From: a virus
Length of the DNA: 27,820 nt
Virus record (IMG/VR): IMGVR_UViG_3300031566_000294
Location: 1-27,820 of that record
Strand: one strand, 5' to 3'
How positions within the stretch are numbered: position 1 is the first letter of the stretch; every line of letters begins with the position of its first letter. The translations under genes were made by a program, and so were the position numbers. The notes below the pieces were generated by a model. The model did no database searches. It was not told the DNA's origin and saw nothing but the letters and a program-made list of their open reading frames with translations. Below, piece after piece: positions 974 to 23,115 of the stretch.

Positions 974-3900
974 TTATTTTGGTTTCACACCGAATAATTT
1001 CAAAGTTTTTACAAAGTTTGATATTCCGTGATTGAATTTGATTTTATTTGATGCATCCACAAGCACCATATTTGGCGAAATGCACCAACATATCCAAGAT
1101 TTATAAGTTTCATTCCAAGTTGTAGTTGCATTCAACTTTAAAATTCCACTTTGCTCTCCTGTAAAAAAATTAACAGAAGAGTTCCCGATCCCCAAAATTA
1201 TTCTGCAATCGAGATTACTCAATTCTTGGTCAATCCATTTACTACATATTTCAATCTGTTTTTGTGATGGGTTTTTTGTTTGCTTAGGAAAACATTTAAA
1301 ACTTGTTGTGATATGGAACAGGCTTTTGCTGTATCCTGTCTTTTTTAATTGGCTCCATAATAACTCTCCTTGTGCACCTGTTAATGAATCGCATTTTATA
1401 TCATTATAATTGTTCGGTATCTCACAGACTATCGCAACATTGTACAATCCCATCGTTGGTATAATTGGCGCTTTACATTCGTTTCTTATCACGCATAATT
1501 TACATTTTGATAATTCTTGGTTCTGATAGCTTACTTTCTCAATTAAGATAGGAAAACCGACTTTTCCTTCTAAAATTTTTTCGATATCATGAGGAGATCC
1601 GTTGCAAATAATTTTTGTTAAATTTGGGTAAAGTACTTCACTATCATTCGAAATTTGGAATTTAAAGTACTCTTGTGCCTTTGAGTTTGGTTTAAAATCA
1701 ATATCCCAAGCTCCTATATCATCTGCGATTTTTTCTAATTTTGTCTTTTTTTCTTCAATTGTCTTTAGGCTCTTTTTTCTCTTAAAAAAACCATCATTAA
1801 CTTTTTCTTTTTTTTGCTCCATATTGTACATAACAAGTGCCGATTTCGGGCCAACTGTTTCGATATTTGAAAAAGGAATAAATAATTTCTTATCTTTTGC
1901 TATCCATTTACTATGATGCGAGATCCCAATTTTTGGCAATACAACTGATAACCCCATTTTATGGGCTTCTTCAATTATATCTTTTGCATTATCCTTATTC
2001 CCGAAAGTTAGATTGGCACAAAAAAATTCAGTCGGGTAATGATATTTGAGATAAGCGCACCAAAAAACAATTTGAGCATATCTAACAGCGTGTGCTTTTG
2101 GAAAACCATATTTTGCCCACTCTAGAAAACCATTCCAAACATTTTGTGCTTCAGATTTTGTTAACGTTTTTTGTTTTACACAGCCACCAATAAACATCTG
2201 TTCGTACTGGCTGAATTCCTTTATGTCTCGTTTTTTTCCAATTATTTTCCTGATTTTATCAGCAGTACTAAACGGTAGTCCGGCAACCTTATTGATAACA
2301 AACATTACGTCTTCTTGAAAAACAATAAGACCGTAAGTGTCTTTCAAAACTTCCTCATAAATATCATTAACTTTTAACCATTTTTTCCCTTTTTTTCTTT
2401 TAATATAATTTTCAGTCATTTTTGATTGAAACGGGCCAGGTCGTCCAAGTGCTAATATCGCTGTTATATCATGGAAACTTTCAACACCCAAATCTTTTGT
2501 TACATTTCTAGCCATATAGCCGTTGAATTGGAAAATCCCGGCTGTATTTTTTCCATTAAGAGTTTTTAAAACATCTTTATCATTAAGTTCAATTTTATTG
2601 AAATTTATTACTACATCGTGATTTTTTTTTATTAAATTTTTAGTTTCATTCAAAACGGTTAAGGTATTAAGGCCAAGGACATCAAGCTTCATTAATCCCA
2701 TTCTTTCTGCGTCGTTCTTATCCCAATTGACAACTAATGCGCCTTTGCGATGTGCAAGTGTGCTGTTTGCACTTTCAGTTAGGCTTATAGGGGCTACTAT
2801 AAGTGCTGAGGCATGTTGGCCACTATTTCTAACAGTACCCTCTAAATTGAGCATTAACTTGACTTCTTCAGGGTAACTTTGTTGAAAAGAATTATCAATC
2901 TTAATAGCATCCTCTAAACTTTCTTCTATCGTTTCACAAAAAGCATTGACTTCTTTTAATGGGATTTCAAAAACTCTTGAGACATCCCTGACACACCCTT
3001 TTGCTTTCATCTTTGAAAAAGTAGAGACACCAGCGATATTTTTTTCTCCGTACATATCCATCAAATGTAGTTTTATTTCAGATCTTCTAACGTCCTCAAA
3101 GTCTAAATCAATGTCAGGATAGTCACCACGTTCTTCATCGATAAATCTTTCAAATAGCAAATTAAATTTTATCGGGTCAGTTGTAGTAATCCCCATTAAA
3201 AAAGCAACTAATGAACCGCCAACAGACCCTCTTGAGCCAAACATAATATCATTCTTAACACACCATGTTACTAGCTCATCTACTATGATAAAATAAGTAA
3301 TAAAGTCTTTATTTTTTAAAAGATTAAACTCCCTTTCAAATCTTTGAGTATAATCAGCCGGTTGATTTTGAGGAAACATCTCAGATAATTTTTTTATACA
3401 TTTATCTTTTAAAAATTTCTCTTCATTTATCACGCCCTTTATTCTAGGTAATTTTATTTGTTTTTGTTCAATTCTGTAACTACTGCATTTTTTTGCAATT
3501 TCAACTGTGTTTCTTAAAGAATTTAAGTATTGTTTTTCAGTAAGTTGTGACTGAATTTTAAAACTATCAATCATTTCGTCTGCTGATTTTAAATACAAAT
3601 CTCTGAAATCAAACGCCCATCTTTTTGGGTCATTCCACGTTGTTTTCGAATTCACAGCCAATAAAACATCTTGGGATTTCGCATCTTCTCTATTTATATA
3701 GTGGCTATCATTTGTAGCTATTAGTTTAATACCAGGAAACTCTTCATGAATGTCTAAGCAAATATTATTGATTTCATATTGCAATTCGTGATCGTGTGGC
3801 ATAACTTCAAGATATATATCATCACTAATAATGTCATCAAGTTTCCAAAATAACTCTTCACCGCCTGGTAAATTTAAAAAAGAACTAACGCAAGCGGTTG

Positions 3901-4297
3901 TTATTACAAGACCTTCACAATGACTCAACAAACTTTCATAGTCTATCCTTGGCCTCCTATAAAAACCGTCCATATTTGATATACTAATCAATCTGCAAAG
4001 ATTACTGAACCCCTTTTGGTTTTTAACTAGTAAAATGATATGTGCTCTTTTTTCTTTTTTCTTAATTTTTAAATTAGGAACTATATAGCATTCGCAACCA
4101 AAAATTGGTTTAATTCCATACTTATCGCAAGCATCTTGAAATTTTAAAAAACCATCAATATTCCCGTGGTCAGTTATTGCTAAGTACTCAAAACCCATTT
4201 CTTTTGCTCGTTTCGCATAAGCTTCGCAAGAACCAACACCATCAAGAATCGAGTATTCTGTATGAGTATGTAGATGACAAAAATCTTTATTTTCCAT
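974..4297 (-). CDS. dnaE: DNA polymerase III alpha (DnaE, C family) with C-terminal uracil-DNA-glycosylase-like domain
   Basis: Replicative DNA polymerase of 1107 aa. The N-terminal PHP domain keeps what look like all the metal ligands of an active PHP site: H10 and H12 in HLHTHTEYS, D43-H44 in TDHGN, E69, H86, C136, D197 and H199. It may therefore proofread, unlike E. coli DnaE. The palm has GSRGSVGGSLVAF (354-366), catalytic D395/D397 in PDIDLDF, and D539 in MKLDVLGL. The usual beta-clamp and OB-fold C-terminus is not evident. Instead residues from about 929 form a family 4/5-type UDG-like domain: Cys 932 and 935 (CKLC), 1002 (KCFP) and 1018 (CSKW) fit a 4Fe-4S site, followed by GIGNSSVNFF. 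The catalytic motifs are changed: GEAPG is CEIPN (958-962) and the usual HP is SP (1074-1075). The fusion is seen directly; loss of glycosylase activity is inference. It ends in LFGVKPK, a possible clamp-binding tail. Confidence 0.95.
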   Translation of the reverse strand: MENKDFCHLHTHTEYSILDGVGSCEAYAKRAKEMGFEYLAITDHGNIDGFLKFQDACDKYGIKPIFGCECYIVPNLKIKKKEKRAHIILLVKNQKGFSNLCRLISISNMDGFYRRPRIDYESLLSHCEGLVITTACVSSFLNLPGGEELFWKLDDIISDDIYLEVMPHDHELQYEINNICLDIHEEFPGIKLIATNDSHYINREDAKSQDVLLAVNSKTTWNDPKRWAFDFRDLYLKSADEMIDSFKIQSQLTEKQYLNSLRNTVEIAKKCSSYRIEQKQIKLPRIKGVINEEKFLKDKCIKKLSEMFPQNQPADYTQRFEREFNLLKNKDFITYFIIVDELVTWCVKNDIMFGSRGSVGGSLVAFLMGITTTDPIKFNLLFERFIDEERGDYPDIDLDFEDVRRSEIKLHLMDMYGEKNIAGVSTFSKMKAKGCVRDVSRVFEIPLKEVNAFCETIEESLEDAIKIDNSFQQSYPEEVKLMLNLEGTVRNSGQHASALIVAPISLTESANSTLAHRKGALVVNWDKNDAERMGLMKLDVLGLNTLTVLNETKNLIKKNHDVVINFNKIELNDKDVLKTLNGKNTAGIFQFNGYMARNVTKDLGVESFHDITAILALGRPGPFQSKMTENYIKRKKGKKWLKVNDIYEEVLKDTYGLIVFQEDVMFVINKVAGLPFSTADKIRKIIGKKRDIKEFSQYEQMFIGGCVKQKTLTKSEAQNVWNGFLEWAKYGFPKAHAVRYAQIVFWCAYLKYHYPTEFFCANLTFGNKDNAKDIIEEAHKMGLSVVLPKIGISHHSKWIAKDKKLFIPFSNIETVGPKSALVMYNMEQKKEKVNDGFFKRKKSLKTIEEKKTKLEKIADDIGAWDIDFKPNSKAQEYFKFQISNDSEVLYPNLTKIICNGSPHDIEKILEGKVGFPILIEKVSYQNQELSKCKLCVIRNECKAPIIPTMGLYNVAIVCEIPNNYNDIKCDSLTGAQGELLWSQLKKTGYSKSLFHITTSFKCFPKQTKNPSQKQIEICSKWIDQELSNLDCRIILGIGNSSVNFFTGEQSGILKLNATTTWNETYKSWICWCISPNMVLVDASNKIKFNHGISNFVKTLKLFGVKPK

Positions 4298-4553: not shown

Positions 4554-4922
4554 TTATTTTAATCCGAATATATGTTTTGGATTTTTTCCTTCAGCTTTCA
4601 GAACTTCAATAATCTCTTCACCATGCCTTTCATTGCAGCAAAATCCCTTGCAAACTTTTTCTAAAAGAATTTTATCAACTTTCTTTTTACTATCTTTTTT
4701 TTTAATATATTTTATAAAAGGAGCTTGGTTTTCTTTCCCTACTATAGAATATAACAAAATATTAAATAACTTGTTAGGAATTTTTCCTAAATAATTATTT
4801 ACGCAGACAGAATCAGTAAAAGTTGAGACGTACATTGATAAATATCTGTTCAACATAAACCCATTGTTACTATCAACTATAGGTTCTTTTTTCTCAAATA
4901 AATTTTTCAATTCGTCAAACAT
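4554..4922 (-). CDS. Putative clamp-loader small subunit (T4 gp62-like)
   Basis: A 122-aa protein starting MFDELKNLF at an ATG that shares one base with the TAA of the clamp-loader large subunit (TAATG). A longer reading with 16 more residues begins inside the upstream gene and is less likely. The pattern NRYLSM, then SVCVNNYLGKIPNKL and PFIKYIKKK recalls the small gp62-type subunits that partner gp44 in T4-like phages. The position directly after the gp44/RFC-like ATPase fits. The C-terminal part has a Cys pair (CKGFCC) and ends HIFGLK, similar to the LFGVKPK end of the polymerase. The resemblance is weak and from memory, so the call rests mostly on gene order. Confidence 0.55.
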   Translation of the reverse strand: MFDELKNLFEKKEPIVDSNNGFMLNRYLSMYVSTFTDSVCVNNYLGKIPNKLFNILLYSIVGKENQAPFIKYIKKKDSKKKVDKILLEKVCKGFCCNERHGEEIIEVLKAEGKNPKHIFGLK

Positions 4923-5629
4923 TAGAATTTTACCGCCACATTTAATTCTTGCATTATTGATACAATACACCCTGATACGTTAATTTCTTTGTCTGCTACC
5001 GTAGCGTCTCTGAACAGATATTCAGCAATATTAATTGCTACTTGTGACCTATCTTTCTCATTAATTTCAAAAATAAATGTATTAAATAAGAAATTGTATA
5101 CCCAGTCAAAAGAACCTGCACCTGCCCACGATTCTCTTAACTTCTTAAGTTCTCCTTTTTTTATTAATTTTATAATTTCAGATTCCTCAATGTTAAAAAC
5201 CATTAAATCGGAGGAGTTTAGTTCACCTGTGATGGAACATTTTTGTAAATTATTAAAAATGCTTCTAATATCTGGATATAACCGTTCAACTATTGTTTTG
5301 ACATCTTTCCTACTGTATTTTATATTTTCTGCTATAAGCGTATCAGTACAATAATTGATTAATTCTATTTTATCAAATGCTGAAAATTCAAATGGTGTGC
5401 ATCTACTTCTTAATGCTGGTATTATTTTACTCACACTATTTGCAGTTAAAATAAATCGACATGTATTGCTATACATTTCAATTGTATTCCTAAGAGCTTT
5501 TTGAGCGTCTGCTGTATTATGCGTTAAAATTCCATTTGCTAATAAAAAATTAGAATTCTTTTTAACACAAATATTATAAGCTTTTTCTTTTTTTTTACGT
5601 GTTATTTTTTTTATTTTTATTAATTTCAT
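4922..5629 (-). CDS. Clamp-loader ATPase, C-terminal part, preceded by a C-intein
   Basis: 235 aa. Residues 1-38 look like a C-intein: a lysine-rich start (MKLIKIKKITRKKKEKAYNI), then block F/G ending NFLLANGILTHN, with Thr39 as the +1 residue. The extein then continues exactly where the partner gene stops: TADAQKALRNTIEMYSN is the RFC/gp44 sequence that follows Walker B DEAD. Sensor 1 LTAN (61-64) and the SRC arginine-finger motif (75-77) follow, then an all-helical collar. Only together with the product of 5626-6504 would it make a full AAA+ loader that opens the clamp on primed DNA. The ATG overlaps the partner's TGA as ATGA with no strong ribosome site, so translation is probably coupled. 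In this frame TAA lies directly before the ATG, so it is not a read-in from further upstream. Confidence 0.9.
   Translation of the reverse strand: MKLIKIKKITRKKKEKAYNICVKKNSNFLLANGILTHNTADAQKALRNTIEMYSNTCRFILTANSVSKIIPALRSRCTPFEFSAFDKIELINYCTDTLIAENIKYSRKDVKTIVERLYPDIRSIFNNLQKCSITGELNSSDLMVFNIEESEIIKLIKKGELKKLRESWAGAGSFDWVYNFLFNTFIFEINEKDRSQVAINIAEYLFRDATVADKEINVSGCIVSIMQELNVAVKF
5516..5629 (-). other. C-intein (38 aa)
   Basis: Codons 1-38 of the downstream half-gene, ending in the splice-site dipeptide His-Asn (CAT AAT at 5521-5516) followed by Thr. Size, basic start and ending closely match the C-halves of known natural split inteins such as gp41-1 (established family knowledge). Trans-splicing itself is not shown by sequence. 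Confidence 0.85.
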
Positions 5630-6504
5630 TTATTTATTTCACCATAACACGCCTGTTTCGCAACTCTTTTATCAGTATCTTTTGATAAACCATTATTCCA
5701 AGCTTTTTTACCAAAATTTGGATTGTTTTTGCCGGTCATTGATTGTGAATGACTTTTATTTGCACAACTAATACTACAAAATTTTTGATTAAAGGTTTTA
5801 TTTTTACAAATAGGGCATTCCTTATATATTTCATCTTCAAGAGAAACAATACTATCACCAACATTTAGGTCTTTAACTTTTATTTCTTTTAATTCTTTAT
5901 TAAAAAATGGGTGATTTGCGCTCGCTTCGATAATACTCCCATCTTCTAATTCAATTTCGTAAAAAATAGTTTCACCACTATCAAGTAAATACCCTTTATC
6001 ATTCTCCATTCCTCTTGTTTCAGTATTAAATGAAGGTATTTTAATTTCTTTTCCAATCTTTACATTTTCCGCCCCATTTAATTTATGAGGGGTTTTTAAT
6101 AAAGGAAGATCTTTAATTTTAATAACTCTTGGGCTTTCTAAACTACCTACAATAATTTCTGTTTCACCTGTTAAGCAAAACCCATCCGCTTCATCAAGGA
6201 ACACTATCTTTATTTTTTTTCCATATTCTATTTGACTAGATGCGAAATCTTTAATTTTCCCTTTTACAGTGTCAATCCCTCTATCCTTTGAACTTGCGTT
6301 CAACGGCAGAACACTACAAGGGATACCATCAATAAGGATTTTTGAGATAGTTGTTTTCCCAGACCCTGGGGGGCCATAAAACAAGAGGTGTGGGATATCT
6401 TGATTTTGAATATAAATATTAAAAGTGGTGTATAAAGAATCAGATAGTACCATATCTTCAAGGTTTTTTGGCCTGTATTTCTCGAACCAAATGTAATTAG
6501 ACAT
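5626..6504 (-). CDS. Clamp-loader ATPase (gp44/RFC-like), N-terminal part, followed by an N-intein
   Basis: 292 aa from the ATG at 6504, which shares a base with the clamp gene's TAA and has a strong AGGAGG site inside that gene. An upstream ATG at 6537 inside the clamp gene is less likely. Residues 1-109 are the start of an RFC/gp44 AAA+ ATPase: WFEKYRPKNLEDMV, Walker A GPPGSGKT (44-51) and Walker B FLDEAD (102-107). At Cys110 an intein begins: block A CLTGETEI and block B GSIIEASANHPFF (Ser in place of the usual Thr of TxxH), then KVKDLNVGDSIV. After about residue 228 come a Cys4 zinc ribbon (CPIC...FCSISC) and a NUMOD3-like segment (TGKNNPNFGKKAWNNGL), a part usually found with HNH or GIY-YIG homing endonucleases. 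No endonuclease core follows; the frame ends at TGA overlapping the next ATG. Confidence 0.92.
   Translation of the reverse strand: MSNYIWFEKYRPKNLEDMVLSDSLYTTFNIYIQNQDIPHLLFYGPPGSGKTTISKILIDGIPCSVLPLNASSKDRGIDTVKGKIKDFASSQIEYGKKIKIVFLDEADGFCLTGETEIIVGSLESPRVIKIKDLPLLKTPHKLNGAENVKIGKEIKIPSFNTETRGMENDKGYLLDSGETIFYEIELEDGSIIEASANHPFFNKELKEIKVKDLNVGDSIVSLEDEIYKECPICKNKTFNQKFCSISCANKSHSQSMTGKNNPNFGKKAWNNGLSKDTDKRVAKQACYGEINK
5629..6177 (-). other. N-intein with zinc-ribbon/NUMOD3 remnant
   Basis: Starts with Cys (TGC at 6177-6175) directly after LDEADGF. The first 115 or so residues carry the N-terminal intein fold blocks. The last 65 or so carry a zinc ribbon and a NUMOD3-like piece, probably what is left of a homing endonuclease. 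The C-half lies in the next ORF. Confidence 0.85.
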
Positions 6505-7235
6505 TAATCCTCCTGAGTAACAATATTTATTGCCCAAATATTTTTTTCATCCTGCTTAACTACAAGAGGTACATCTTTTGCGAATAGTAAAGTTGGGGTA
6601 CCTTCTGCAACCAGCAAAGCGTTTAAAAAAGCTATGCCGTCTATTAATAGCTCAAAATCATCCGTAATATCTTCATTGAAATCTTTTACATTCCCTATTG
6701 ATAGTGATATTTGTGTTTCATTCTGACCACCAATACTGAAAATAACTTCTCCTTTTTTAAATATCAATTTTATCAACTTAGATTTCAATACGCTCATATT
6801 AGAAATTAAATTGGTACGTAAGTCTGCTGTCAATTTAATTTCCAGATTAACAGCGGATAGTATTTTATCTAATGGAGATTTATCGTTTTCAATTTCAAAT
6901 TGTGTAGAAATGAAATCAATATCCTGTAATAGGTATTTTAACGTTCCTTTCCCTTTACTTTTTAAAACTAATCTGTTATCTTTTTTACTAACTTCAATTT
7001 CATCATTACTAACTATTGACAACCATTTGATTAACGTTGAGATATCACCTATCCCTAAATCCCAGTCTTCTGCCGTTTTAAATTCTTCTTGACAAGATAA
7101 AAGGATAGACGTTTTTTCATCTATTGCCTCTACAAGCCAAATTCCATCATCATAAGTTGTAATTTTGCAATTATTAACCGTTCCACCAAGGTGAACTTTT
7201 TTTAAAAACTTAACTAAAGCACTTGCATTACCCAT
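6504..7235 (-). CDS. Sliding clamp (T4 gp45/PCNA-like processivity factor)
   Basis: 243 aa. Directly upstream of, and overlapping, the RFC-like loader gene. It shows the alternating strand-rich pattern of two or more clamp repeats and a typical C-terminal segment with DFELLIDGIAFLNALL and PLVVKQDEKNIWAIN. T4 gp45 is 228 aa, a bacterial beta clamp about 366, so the length fits a trimeric gp45/PCNA-type ring. It would tether the DnaE polymerase to DNA. The start has an AAAGGAGAG site. Identity rests on fold-like pattern plus gene order; I see no diagnostic short motif. Confidence 0.8.
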   Translation of the reverse strand: MGNASALVKFLKKVHLGGTVNNCKITTYDDGIWLVEAIDEKTSILLSCQEEFKTAEDWDLGIGDISTLIKWLSIVSNDEIEVSKKDNRLVLKSKGKGTLKYLLQDIDFISTQFEIENDKSPLDKILSAVNLEIKLTADLRTNLISNMSVLKSKLIKLIFKKGEVIFSIGGQNETQISLSIGNVKDFNEDITDDFELLIDGIAFLNALLVAEGTPTLLFAKDVPLVVKQDEKNIWAINIVTQED

Positions 7236-9813: not shown

Positions 9814-12576
9814 TCAATTAATCCATTCGCTGTCCAGGTATGTTTGCCCCAATTCCAAACACTGTAGAACCATAACCTCTCTACTTGTGACTGCCTTACC
9901 CATCCTGCGATATAAAACATTGATCCGCATAATGCCTCTCTGTTTTTCTTTATCAGTCTGATTCAAACCGATTCTAAAATCAAGAATCCCATCCTTTCTT
10001 TTATCATCTGAAAAATTATTCTGTTTCAACGACTCTTGGTTTCTTGCCTGCGAATTTGCTTGATCAGCGGTTATATGTACGCAATTGTACTCAGCCGTTA
10101 ACCTTTTGGCATTTTGCCACAATTTATAAATTCCCTCACGTTCGCTTGATGACGGCTCTTTTTGTTGAATATCAATGTAGTCGTTAATAATGACATCGGG
10201 CACAAAATCATCAGCAATTAATAACTTCAAAACGTTTTCCATATCTTTTGCGCCTGCCGAAAAAGATGGATAGTTAACAATTCTAAGATTTTCACTTCCA
10301 AACATTGTAGCATAACCTTTTATTTTTTTAGATAAATTTGTATATGTCAATTTTTTTATTTTATCTTGTTTTTTGTGCCATACAGCAACTTTAAAATCTC
10401 TTGTTCCTCTGCAAACTGTACATTCTTGATATTTTGGGAAATCATCAAATCTTGGGAATTCATCATCAGCTAATCCATACAAAAGATTATTAACTTTATT
10501 TTCTCTTTTTTTTGAATTACACTCTCCTGTCTGGTTATATTCACAATCGAAAACAGGATAAGTTACAGGTTCTTCAGTATTTAGTTTCATGCCGCTTAAC
10601 TGTGCATAATACCTATCTAAAGTTTGCTCTTTGTTCATTTCAAAAGAAAAAATAATTACTTTTAATCTACTACTTATAGCTTGTTTTACTAGTTCTTGTA
10701 GCCACCATGTATTATGAACAATAATATCTTCAGCTACAAAATTATGATGTTTTTCAACCTCAATATCATATGTTGGTCTTTTCCCTATAAAATTTATTGA
10801 TTCAATTTTATCCCAAATGATATCAGAATATAAATATTTATTGATTAGTGGAGATTTTTCAACAACTTTATCATAAGATATTTTCATCACGTCATTGCCT
10901 TTATTTAACTCATAATTAATTGCTCTCCACTTACTTTTTCCAAAATTTTCATAAATTTTTAAACCTTGTTTCTTACAAAATATTTCAAAATCAATTCTTA
11001 ATTGTTTACCAATGTTGTTTGGAACTTTATCTAAGAATGATTTTTGATTTTTAGATTCCGCTATTTTAATAATTTTATCAGCTATTGGTTTTTTATAAGC
11101 TATAAAGCCAATTTTTTTACAGAACATTATAATATTTTTAGAGTCTCTGATTTCTACTGTCCAAGCACCAGCACATTTGTTATTTTTATATCTAAGTTTA
11201 GATATAATTCCAAATTTAAGGAGTAAACTTTGAACAGATTTTGAGAGTTGTTTACTTGCGGATGTATAATCAATTCCAAAATCAAATATTGAACCATCGC
11301 AAGTAAACAATATTTTTAAAAATTCAATTAATTGTCGCTTTGGGAAGTTAAAAACACAATCTGGAATTTTTCGATCTTTTGATAGAACATTATTTAGCTC
11401 GCATTCATTTATAAATGTTTTGATTCTACTACCATGTTTCCCAATCCGATCTTTTCCATTTACAATAAGGCAATCTCCATGGCGCATTTTGTCCTTACTC
11501 CAGGTAACTGAATCCCCCATCTTAATCACACAATATTCAAAATCTTTTTGAATATCCTTATCAATGTTGGTAAACCCTATCGAATGATTACGAAAACACC
11601 CTTCTGCTATCAAATAGGATAGTAATCGTACTTGATGTAAAGGCATTGCTTGAGTCCCAAAAAAACTAAGAGTTTGTGGAACAGCTATAAAATCACCAAC
11701 TTTTATATCTTCTAACTTTTTCCATTTTCCTGTATCCACTAAAAGTGGGTGGTTAATAGTTAGGTTAACTGACCTGCCTGTTTTTGTTATAACTTCATAA
11801 ACGTCTTGTTCACCTTGATATAGCCAATCAGTGATTTGTGTTTTTTCTAATTTATAATTATCTAAATTAAGACTCATTGTATGGCTATCTTTATCACTAA
11901 CAACATCTTCAATGCGTTTATAACTTCCATTAGGTAGTAGTATTTTGCAATCCCCGTCAACGCACTTTCCTCGCTTTTCTGGGCCAGTTATAGCCACTAG
12001 ATTATTTCTTTCAAAGCCCCCAACAAGCTCCCCAAGAGCGCCTTCAAAATTCAATATTACTCTTTTTTCATTTTGAGTAAAATACGCTTTAATTTCTTCG
12101 TCTGATAATGGGTTGTACCAAGGTGTAAGGTTTTCCTCAATAATAACTGAGGATGCTTCTATTTGTACCGCCTCATCTATTTTTCCAGCATCTAGTAATT
12201 TTTCAACCTTCTGATTCCTTAACCTCATCGCACGTTCTTTAAAATATTCTTTTGCAAGATCGATCTGGAATCTGGAATTAAAAACTGTTGTTTCATGTTC
12301 TTGCGAAACTTTATCAAGAAATATTTCTATAATTTCCACAAGAGTTTTATCAATTGATTTTTTATTTTTTTCGAATAAATCATACATGTTCTTGCCTGGG
12401 GAACTATCATACTTTTCATAATATTCATTAACCCATCTAATAATTAATCTTGCGTATTCTAGTTTAAAATATTCTGGCTTTGCTAATTTTATACATTGTG
12501 AGCAAAAAAGATCATCAATTATCAAACCGGTAATAATTTTTTTTTCAACAGTTGTATCTATTTTTTTAATTTTCAT
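9814..12576 (-). CDS. dnaB: DnaB-like replicative helicase with an intein in Walker A
   Basis: 920 aa from the ATG at 12576, which follows the ParB-like gene by 4 nt; an ATG at 12606 inside that gene lacks a ribosome site. The helicase is about 500 aa after removal of a 418-aa intein (residues 205-622). Exteins join as GPEKRGK plus TWWLQEL to make a P-loop (GPxKRGKT). The N-terminal DnaB-type helical domain is followed by a linker (FEGALGELVGGFERNNLVAITG). The C-terminal RecA domain has FSFEMNKEQ, Walker B VIINDYIDI, HITADQAN and a GILDFRIGLNQ segment. A possible zinc-binding insertion (Cys 678, 686, 719, 722) lies after FEM, which is unusual for DnaB but seen in phage relatives. It would unwind the fork and recruit the phage primase. 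Confidence 0.92.
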   Translation of the reverse strand: MKIKKIDTTVEKKIITGLIIDDLFCSQCIKLAKPEYFKLEYARLIIRWVNEYYEKYDSSPGKNMYDLFEKNKKSIDKTLVEIIEIFLDKVSQEHETTVFNSRFQIDLAKEYFKERAMRLRNQKVEKLLDAGKIDEAVQIEASSVIIEENLTPWYNPLSDEEIKAYFTQNEKRVILNFEGALGELVGGFERNNLVAITGPEKRGKCVDGDCKILLPNGSYKRIEDVVSDKDSHTMSLNLDNYKLEKTQITDWLYQGEQDVYEVITKTGRSVNLTINHPLLVDTGKWKKLEDIKVGDFIAVPQTLSFFGTQAMPLHQVRLLSYLIAEGCFRNHSIGFTNIDKDIQKDFEYCVIKMGDSVTWSKDKMRHGDCLIVNGKDRIGKHGSRIKTFINECELNNVLSKDRKIPDCVFNFPKRQLIEFLKILFTCDGSIFDFGIDYTSASKQLSKSVQSLLLKFGIISKLRYKNNKCAGAWTVEIRDSKNIIMFCKKIGFIAYKKPIADKIIKIAESKNQKSFLDKVPNNIGKQLRIDFEIFCKKQGLKIYENFGKSKWRAINYELNKGNDVMKISYDKVVEKSPLINKYLYSDIIWDKIESINFIGKRPTYDIEVEKHHNFVAEDIIVHNTWWLQELVKQAISSRLKVIIFSFEMNKEQTLDRYYAQLSGMKLNTEEPVTYPVFDCEYNQTGECNSKKRENKVNNLLYGLADDEFPRFDDFPKYQECTVCRGTRDFKVAVWHKKQDKIKKLTYTNLSKKIKGYATMFGSENLRIVNYPSFSAGAKDMENVLKLLIADDFVPDVIINDYIDIQQKEPSSSEREGIYKLWQNAKRLTAEYNCVHITADQANSQARNQESLKQNNFSDDKRKDGILDFRIGLNQTDKEKQRGIMRINVLYRRMGKAVTSREVMVLQCLELGQTYLDSEWIN
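10711..11964 (-). other. LAGLIDADG intein (418 aa) in the helicase P-loop
   Basis: Starts Cys (TGC at 11964-11962; CVDGDCKILLPNG) and ends HNFVAEDIIVHN before Thr. Block B is RSVNLTINHPLL (TxNH). The endonuclease domain shows two LAGLIDADG helices, LLSYLIAEGCF and LKILFTCDGSI, each with an acidic residue, so it may be active. Insertion exactly at GK/T of the P-loop is a known hot spot for inteins. Confidence 0.92.
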
Positions 12577-12580
12577 TACT

Positions 12581-13066
12581 TTATTCCCATGATTTTGAAT
12601 ATTCATGACTTTTAAAAGAATGGGCTATACCGAGTTGTTGTTTAAGCCTTAAATATTCTTCTGTTTCCATTCCTAAGTTTTTACAAATCTCATCATCCAT
12701 CAAGCCTAAATCTTCTAAGTTAACTAATAGGTCACTCATTAGTTCAACTTGATGCATTCCTTTAATCCTGTTCATTAATACGGTTAATTGTATTGCGTCA
12801 TGGTGTGTTAAGTTAAGATTGATAATTGATACTCTTTTTGCACCTATTTTTTTTAAAGTCTCATATCTATGATAACCGTCTATTATTCTAAACTTACCCT
12901 TTTCCTTATTATATGCAACAATAATTGGGAATAAAAACCCATACTTTATTATACAATCAGAGAGCAGTTTCATTTCTGTTTGTGGCATTCTATTCGGGTT
13001 ATATTCATTTGCATAGATATCTTCAATATCCACTATCCTTTGGCCCCTTATAATAATTTCATCCAT
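12581..13066 (-). CDS. ParB/sulfiredoxin-fold protein (IbrB-like)
   Basis: 161 aa. The N-terminal ParB-like fold has EYNPNRMP (21-28), the helix LSDCIIKYGFLFPIIV, and the hallmark DGYHRY (63-68), equivalent to DG-HR motifs in ParB and IbrB. The C-terminal helices lack an obvious ParB helix-turn-helix for centromere binding, so it is not a standard partition protein. It overlaps the PAPS-reductase-like gene by 19 nt, the same pairing as IbrA-IbrB of E. coli prophage-like elements, where the pair acts on gene expression (established for that pair). The fold can be a nucleotide-using enzyme or nuclease; its activity here is unknown. Confidence 0.8.
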   Translation of the reverse strand: MDEIIIRGQRIVDIEDIYANEYNPNRMPQTEMKLLSDCIIKYGFLFPIIVAYNKEKGKFRIIDGYHRYETLKKIGAKRVSIINLNLTHHDAIQLTVLMNRIKGMHQVELMSDLLVNLEDLGLMDDEICKNLGMETEEYLRLKQQLGIAHSFKSHEYSKSWE

Positions 13067-22659: not shown

Positions 22660-23115
22660 TTAAAATTCACTTTTTAAAATATCTTGCCATTTACTATTTA
22701 TATCTTCCCAAAATATGCGCTCATTTTCTTGTAAATATGGGAACGCACCAGTTATATAATATTTATCTGTGACAGTCCACTCATATTGCCTGTCAGATTT
22801 TTTACAGAAGTTCCGATAGCCTTTTACTTTAAAAAAATATAAGTAAACGATATTTTCACTTCTCAGAAATTCAAAAAATCTCTGCATTTTTGGCCTGTTT
22901 TTATAATTCTTGATGAATTCGAATGCTGAAGAGTCTTCTTTAAACTTGTTATGGAATAACTCCCCTTCCAATCTTGCCCTTACAGCTTCAATTTTTGTTT
23001 TATAACTCCCAATATGGTTATTTTTACCATCTAACCATATCTGCGCTCTCCAGCGCCCCCTTTTTTTGCTAAAGAACACACCCGTCGTTTTTTGATAGTT
23101 AATAAGACTTGCCAT
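22660..23115 (-). CDS. AP2-domain DNA-binding protein
   Basis: 151 aa. Residues 11-51 form an AP2/ERF domain: TGVFFSKKRGRWRAQIWLDG followed by NNHIGSYKTKIEAVRARLEGE, with the conserved Gly-Val, Trp-Arg-Ala and Gly-x-Tyr positions. In phages such domains usually belong to HNH homing endonucleases, but no HNH motif follows. The remaining 90 aa (FFEFLRSENIVYLYF, YITGAFPYLQENERIFW) are unrecognised. It has an AAAGGAGAAAGAG site. It is either a free regulator or a decayed endonuclease. Confidence 0.75.
   Translation of the reverse strand: MASLINYQKTTGVFFSKKRGRWRAQIWLDGKNNHIGSYKTKIEAVRARLEGELFHNKFKEDSSAFEFIKNYKNRPKMQRFFEFLRSENIVYLYFFKVKGYRNFCKKSDRQYEWTVTDKYYITGAFPYLQENERIFWEDINSKWQDILKSEF

Follow-up and report, generated by a model that had tools for sequence, protein, structure and literature searches.

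A putative split intein with an endonuclease remnant in a phage clamp-loader gene pair

A clamp loader encoded in two overlapping open reading frames

The window analyzed here, IMG/VR record IMGVR_UViG_3300031566_000294, positions 1 to 27,820, is a linear 27.8-kb fragment of a phage genome. On its minus strand, a sliding clamp, the N-terminal half (N-half) of a clamp loader, the C-terminal half (C-half) of the same loader and a clamp-loader small subunit are encoded one after another in a chain of overlapping genes, with TAATG, ATGA and TAATG at the successive junctions (Table 1). In T4 the corresponding gene order is 45-44-62, and the order of clamp, loader and small subunit in the window matches it. 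The original prediction, which was made from the sequence alone, held that two open reading frames (ORFs) meeting at an ATGA encode a loader split inside Walker B by a split intein, and that the second ORF resumes as the continuation of RFC. The two ORFs indeed meet in this way and the continuation was borne out, but the place of the break had to be corrected. The intein is inserted after LDEADGF, two residues beyond the DEAD box, and therefore Walker B is whole in the N-half.

Both parts of the putative split intein were recognized by intein profiles of NCBIfam, and both exceeded the curated cut-offs; a search with intein profiles had been suggested along with the prediction. The profile intein_Nterm (TIGR01445) matched residues 110-201 of the N-half (E 6.5e-7), and intein_Cterm (TIGR01443) matched residues 17-39 of the C-half (E 2.7e-6). 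Moreover, the joined splicing halves aligned over the break to the Npu DnaE intein (4kl5/2keq, E 3e-6 to 8e-6); their match to gp41-1 was weak (6riz, E 0.018). The residues expected to be catalytic are present: the N-half has a Cys at intein position 1 (C110) and Ser-x-x-His in block B, both of which are class 1 criteria and common to the relatives, and the C-half has the penultimate His, the terminal Asn and a Thr at +1 (ILTHN/T, with the slash marking the splice junction here and below), which are class 1 criteria as well. The C-intein has 38 residues, the typical length of the C-terminal part of split inteins (IntC) being 35-40 residues (PMC12707363), and the break falls where the relatives carry an endonuclease.

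The host protein is divided cleanly between the two ORFs. PHROG 168 (clamp loader) matched the N-half with its positions 7-112 and the C-half with its positions 112-312, and the exteins are therefore complementary, without overlap or gap. When joined, they aligned with the RFC small subunit of Archaeoglobus fulgidus (Af) with E 4.6e-44 and no gap at the junction, where FLDEADGF/TADAQ of the window is opposite FLDEADALTADAQ, placing the insertion site at Af 114/115 (Leu114/Thr115). The C-extein carries an intact sensor 1 (FILTAN) and an intact SRC arginine-finger motif, and no further lesion was seen in it. The original prediction held that the phage would have no intact loader without trans-splicing; the window, itself a fragment, encodes no clamp loader beyond the split one.

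Table 1. Features of the split clamp-loader locus, in positions of the window
Feature	Coordinates	Strand	Remarks
Sliding clamp, gp45-like	6504..7235	-	TAATG junction with N-half; phrog_223 E 1e-6
N-half gene: N-extein, N-intein and endonuclease stump, 292 aa	5626..6504	-	ATG start, GGAGG upstream
N-extein, residues 1-109	6178..6504	-	Walker A GPPGSGKT, Walker B FLDEADGF; phrog_168 positions 7-112
N-intein splicing part, residues 110-222	5839..6177	-	Nucleophile C110, block B SANHPFF; TIGR01445 and A1 invariant columns
Endonuclease stump, residues 223-292	5629..5838	-	Match to haloarchaeal same-site inteins, E 2e-10
Zinc ribbon CPIC-x9-CSISC in stump	5764..5817	-	Comparison with same-site inteins
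NUMOD3 motif GKNNPNFG in stump	5704..5748	-	PF07460 E 0.0013; phrog_21964
Shine-Dalgarno-like GGTGA, 9 nt 5' of C-half ATG	5639..5643	-	-7.4 kcal/mol
ATGA, overlap of N-half stop and C-half start	5626..5629	-	
C-half gene: C-intein and C-extein, 235 aa	4922..5629	-	
C-intein, residues 1-38	5516..5629	-	C-terminal ILTHN; TIGR01443
C-extein, 197 aa	4925..5515	-	+1 Thr (T39); phrog_168 positions 112-312
Clamp-loader small subunit, gp62-like	4554..4922	-	TAATG junction with C-half; phrog_225 E 7e-8

An endonuclease remnant on the N-half

Beyond the splicing part, the N-half continues for 70 residues that read CPIC...FCSISC...MTGKNNPNFG. A profile of the corresponding stretch of eleven haloarchaeal inteins found this tail with E 2e-10; among 200 shuffled versions of the tail, the lowest E was 0.12. 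The Pfam match to NUMOD3 (PF07460, E 0.0013) fell slightly short of the cut-off, but the same-site inteins identified the motif far more strongly. Thus, the zinc ribbon and the NUMOD3-like tail that had been predicted on the N-half are both real. Judged by its sequence, the stump is a remnant of the embedded homing endonuclease of same-site inteins.

The catalytic part of this endonuclease is missing: profiles built from the relatives matched no part of the window in any of its six frames. Neither is there a free-standing endonuclease ORF between the halves, as the two ORFs overlap. A contiguous haloarchaeal intein of 199 residues (L091) has undergone a parallel deletion: of its endonuclease, only the zinc ribbon and the first NUMOD3-like stretch are left. 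Taken together, the missing catalytic part and this parallel deletion indicate that the window shows the same kind of decay, but as two genes. The archaeal same-site endonucleases start in the same way as the stump, and these observations agree with endonuclease decay, as had been suggested, being the likely source of the tail.

Inteins at the same site in other genomes

We scanned 84,980 genomes with the pattern DEADx[FLIMV]C..[DE]T and found six RFC inteins at exactly the site of the window (L041, L047, L048, L052, L053 and L055). Four of them, from Bathyarchaeia (L048, L052), a thaumarchaeote (L055) and Natronomonas (L053), are contiguous, and their embedded endonuclease starts with a zinc ribbon. 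The intein of L047 (L094), from a contig in the bin of a WOR-3 genome, is a mini-intein and is contiguous as well. The last one, from an uncultured archaeon (L041, 1-940), is a split RFC N-half. Its stop is overlapped by a zinc-finger ORF, and the contig ends before the C-half; an ORF for an IS200-like transposase (2-595) adjoins this N-half. Additionally, profile searches found a same-site intein in 22 of 194 genomes of Halobacteria.

A further same-site loader, on a different contig from the WOR-3 bin (L073/L093; L093 8552-10960), is fractured into an N-half, an endonuclease ORF and a C-half, which overlap one after another. The endonuclease ORF encodes 355 residues with a TnsA-like nuclease domain (PF08722, E 9e-9; phrog_15427, E 1.5e-19). 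The replication genes of this contig are of archaeal type. As it encodes ERCC4-type nuclease, primase-like and PD-(D/E)XK genes, it may come from an archaeal virus or element. The fractured L073 loader indicates that another clamp loader can accommodate a split at exactly this place.

The splicing domain of the window is 35-44% identical to those of the same-site inteins, with which it shares C1, the block B serine, PFF and ILTHN-T. A tree of the splicing domains did not resolve the nearest kin of the window intein. The search for a near relative of the phage itself in the viral collection, with peptide patterns from the N-half, the C-half and Pol III and with DNA patterns from the junctions, gave only unrelated matches.

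Proposed mechanism and origin

We propose, with a probability that we put at roughly three in four, that the locus encodes a trans-splicing split intein that arose by endonuclease loss, within a coupled operon of clamp, loader N-half, loader C-half and loader small subunit. The loader ATPase, of the T4 gp44/RFC small-subunit type, would be synthesized as the products of two genes, which protein trans-splicing then unites. The ATGA overlap may ensure near-equal synthesis of both halves through termination-reinitiation; the halves would then bind each other, and a normal loader would be released once the peptide bond has been exchanged. By analogy with Npu DnaE and gp41-1, Cys110 would initiate the reaction, the block B His and the C-terminal His-Asn would complete it, and the Thr at +1 would serve as the acceptor.

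To judge from the relatives, the ancestral intein at the same RFC site was probably contiguous and carried an embedded homing endonuclease. With deletion of the catalytic part of the endonuclease, the zinc ribbon and the NUMOD3 stretch would have remained, attached to the N-half, and the stop and start would have arisen exactly where the C-intein begins. The site occurs today as contiguous with an endonuclease (L048, L052, L053, L055), as contiguous with a deletion (L091) and as a mini-intein (L047), and also as fractured with an endonuclease ORF (L073/L093, and L041 in part). We lean slightly towards the more specific view that the window holds a split intein soon after its birth, in which the ATGA coupling has replaced the covalent link and the loader is made only by trans-splicing.

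Is the split real and is the loader functional?

Several observations weigh against this proposal. No second case of the gapless split arrangement came up in the viral collection or among 50,697 phage records, and tblastn over the latter returned intact loaders and a single split one (LR756500, described below) only. AlphaFold modeled the N-half with a predicted local distance difference test score (pLDDT) of 49 and the contiguous relative L047 with 55, which is too poor for use. The Shine-Dalgarno-like site of the C-half is within the range of the other genes of the window, but it is modest, its score being matched by 8% of random ATGs. Finally, one inserted base can fuse both ORFs, at the six adjacent positions 5626-5631.

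The last of these points bears on whether there are two genes at all. In the assembled consensus, the sequence around the junction within 5600-5660 is GGTGAAATAAATAAATGAAATT, and the bases at 5626-5631 are AAATAAATG, with no long run. One base more at any of these positions would restore a single frame, so that a base missed in the assembly, a recent frameshift or a break present only in the sequenced clone could have split what is in truth one ORF for a contiguous mini-intein with a stump. Such a product would be plausible because L091, with nearly the same stump at the same site, is contiguous. However, the fusing insertion is limited to these six bases because the stop of the C-frame (TAA) directly precedes the ATG, and the error would have to lie in a stretch with just three A in a row. 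The two long A runs nearby (A8 and A9, inside the C-intein) were read correctly. No other gene of the window is visibly broken, and the C-intein starts with an ATG that has a Shine-Dalgarno-like site upstream and the C-frame stop immediately before it. We thus consider a missed base unlikely and regard a genuine split as far more probable than a sequence error.

If the split is real, the break might instead have inactivated the loader, the phage relying on the host loader or on a copy outside the fragment. A further copy could exist because the window covers 27.8 kb of the genome, and the G+C content at third codon positions of the intein (0.08-0.16) is below that of the exteins (0.21-0.33), as expected of foreign DNA. 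Nevertheless, neither half has lost catalytic residues of the intein or of the ATPase, no additional lesion is seen in the C-extein, and the clamp and small-subunit genes still form an unbroken operon with the two halves, with tight overlaps. Another fractured loader also exists at this site (L073/L093). A dead loader is improbable in the face of these features. Ribosomal frameshifting, by which a -1 shift in the A-rich junction would reach the C-frame and give a contiguous precursor spliced in cis, is very improbable: programmed frameshifting was rejected because the junction has no slippery X-XXY-YYZ heptamer (A AAT AAA departs from this pattern), and the TAA closing the C-frame directly 5' of the ATG leaves only a few bases for the shift.

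Comparison with known systems

The window shares with the contiguous archaeal RFC inteins the insertion point (LDEADxx/C...HN/TxDAQ), a homologous splicing domain with 36-44% identity and a homologous zinc ribbon/NUMOD3 start of the endonuclease. It differs from them in that they are single ORFs in archaeal genes and, with the exception of L091, contain a full endonuclease of about 300 residues. The described RFC intein sites a, b and c lie at Af 51/52, 76/77 and 138/139 (PMC2814812), and for Halobacteria only the rfc-a and rfc-d alleles are reported (Soucy et al. 2014, PMC4071816). Since the site of the window, Af 114/115, differs from a-c and occurs in 22 of 194 Halobacteria genomes, it is none of these three and probably corresponds to the rfc-d allele of Halobacteria.

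As for the known split systems, the Npu DnaE and gp41-1 inteins have the same two-part splicing domain by sequence and an IntC of similar length, but they interrupt other host genes and have no endonuclease stump. Phage 'fractured genes', reportedly described by Dassa et al. in 2009, are split at the endonuclease site of an intein, with a free-standing endonuclease gene between the halves. The PolB gene of phage MIJ3 likewise has a split intein with an endonuclease gene between its halves (PMC6892783). These genes resemble the window in that a replication gene is broken at the endonuclease site and that the N-terminal and C-terminal intein parts are carried by the two halves. In contrast to them, the halves in the window are not separated by an endonuclease gene but overlap, and the remnant lies within the N-half.

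A phage counterpart that we found by tblastn is an unannotated split clamp loader in a 462-kb huge phage, LR756500 (L002 2995-5740; LR756500.1 about 208.1-210.9 kb). This loader is also broken by a split intein near Walker B, with a splicing domain 39% identical to that of the window, but the insertion is four residues upstream (LDE/C...HN/CDG) and a 443-residue endonuclease ORF (phrog_15427) lies between the halves. The LR756500 record contains further intein-like ORFs.

Natural split inteins, fractured phage genes and archaeal RFC inteins at sites a, b, c and d are already known. What appear new are the phage clamp-loader host, the overlapping halves without an intervening gene and the endonuclease stump on the N-half; a search of the open-access full-text literature gave nothing relevant on clamp loaders interrupted by a split intein. 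Contiguous inteins are regarded as the source of natural split ones (PMC12707363), and intermediates on this path are scarce. Here, one clamp-loader site allows a direct comparison of contiguous inteins with and without an endonuclease, a fractured gene with a free endonuclease and a gapless split with a stump. If the proposed splicing takes place, the loader of a phage replisome has become dependent on it, and the two halves would offer a new split intein pair to protein engineering. Additionally, an intein type otherwise found here in archaeal RFC sits in a phage with replication genes of bacterial type.

Other genes of the window

A small protein (22660-23115, minus strand) matched the AP2 domain (PF00847) with E 7e-4, which is below the cut-off; it may be what is left of an HNH-AP2 homing endonuclease. 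The DNA polymerase III alpha subunit (974-4297, minus strand) carries a C-terminal domain of the uracil-DNA glycosylase superfamily (residues 958-1084, PF03167 E 4e-8). The DnaB-like helicase gene (9814-12606, minus strand) contains a second intein, which is contiguous, has a LAGLIDADG endonuclease and is inserted at Walker A (GPEKRGK/C...HN/T).
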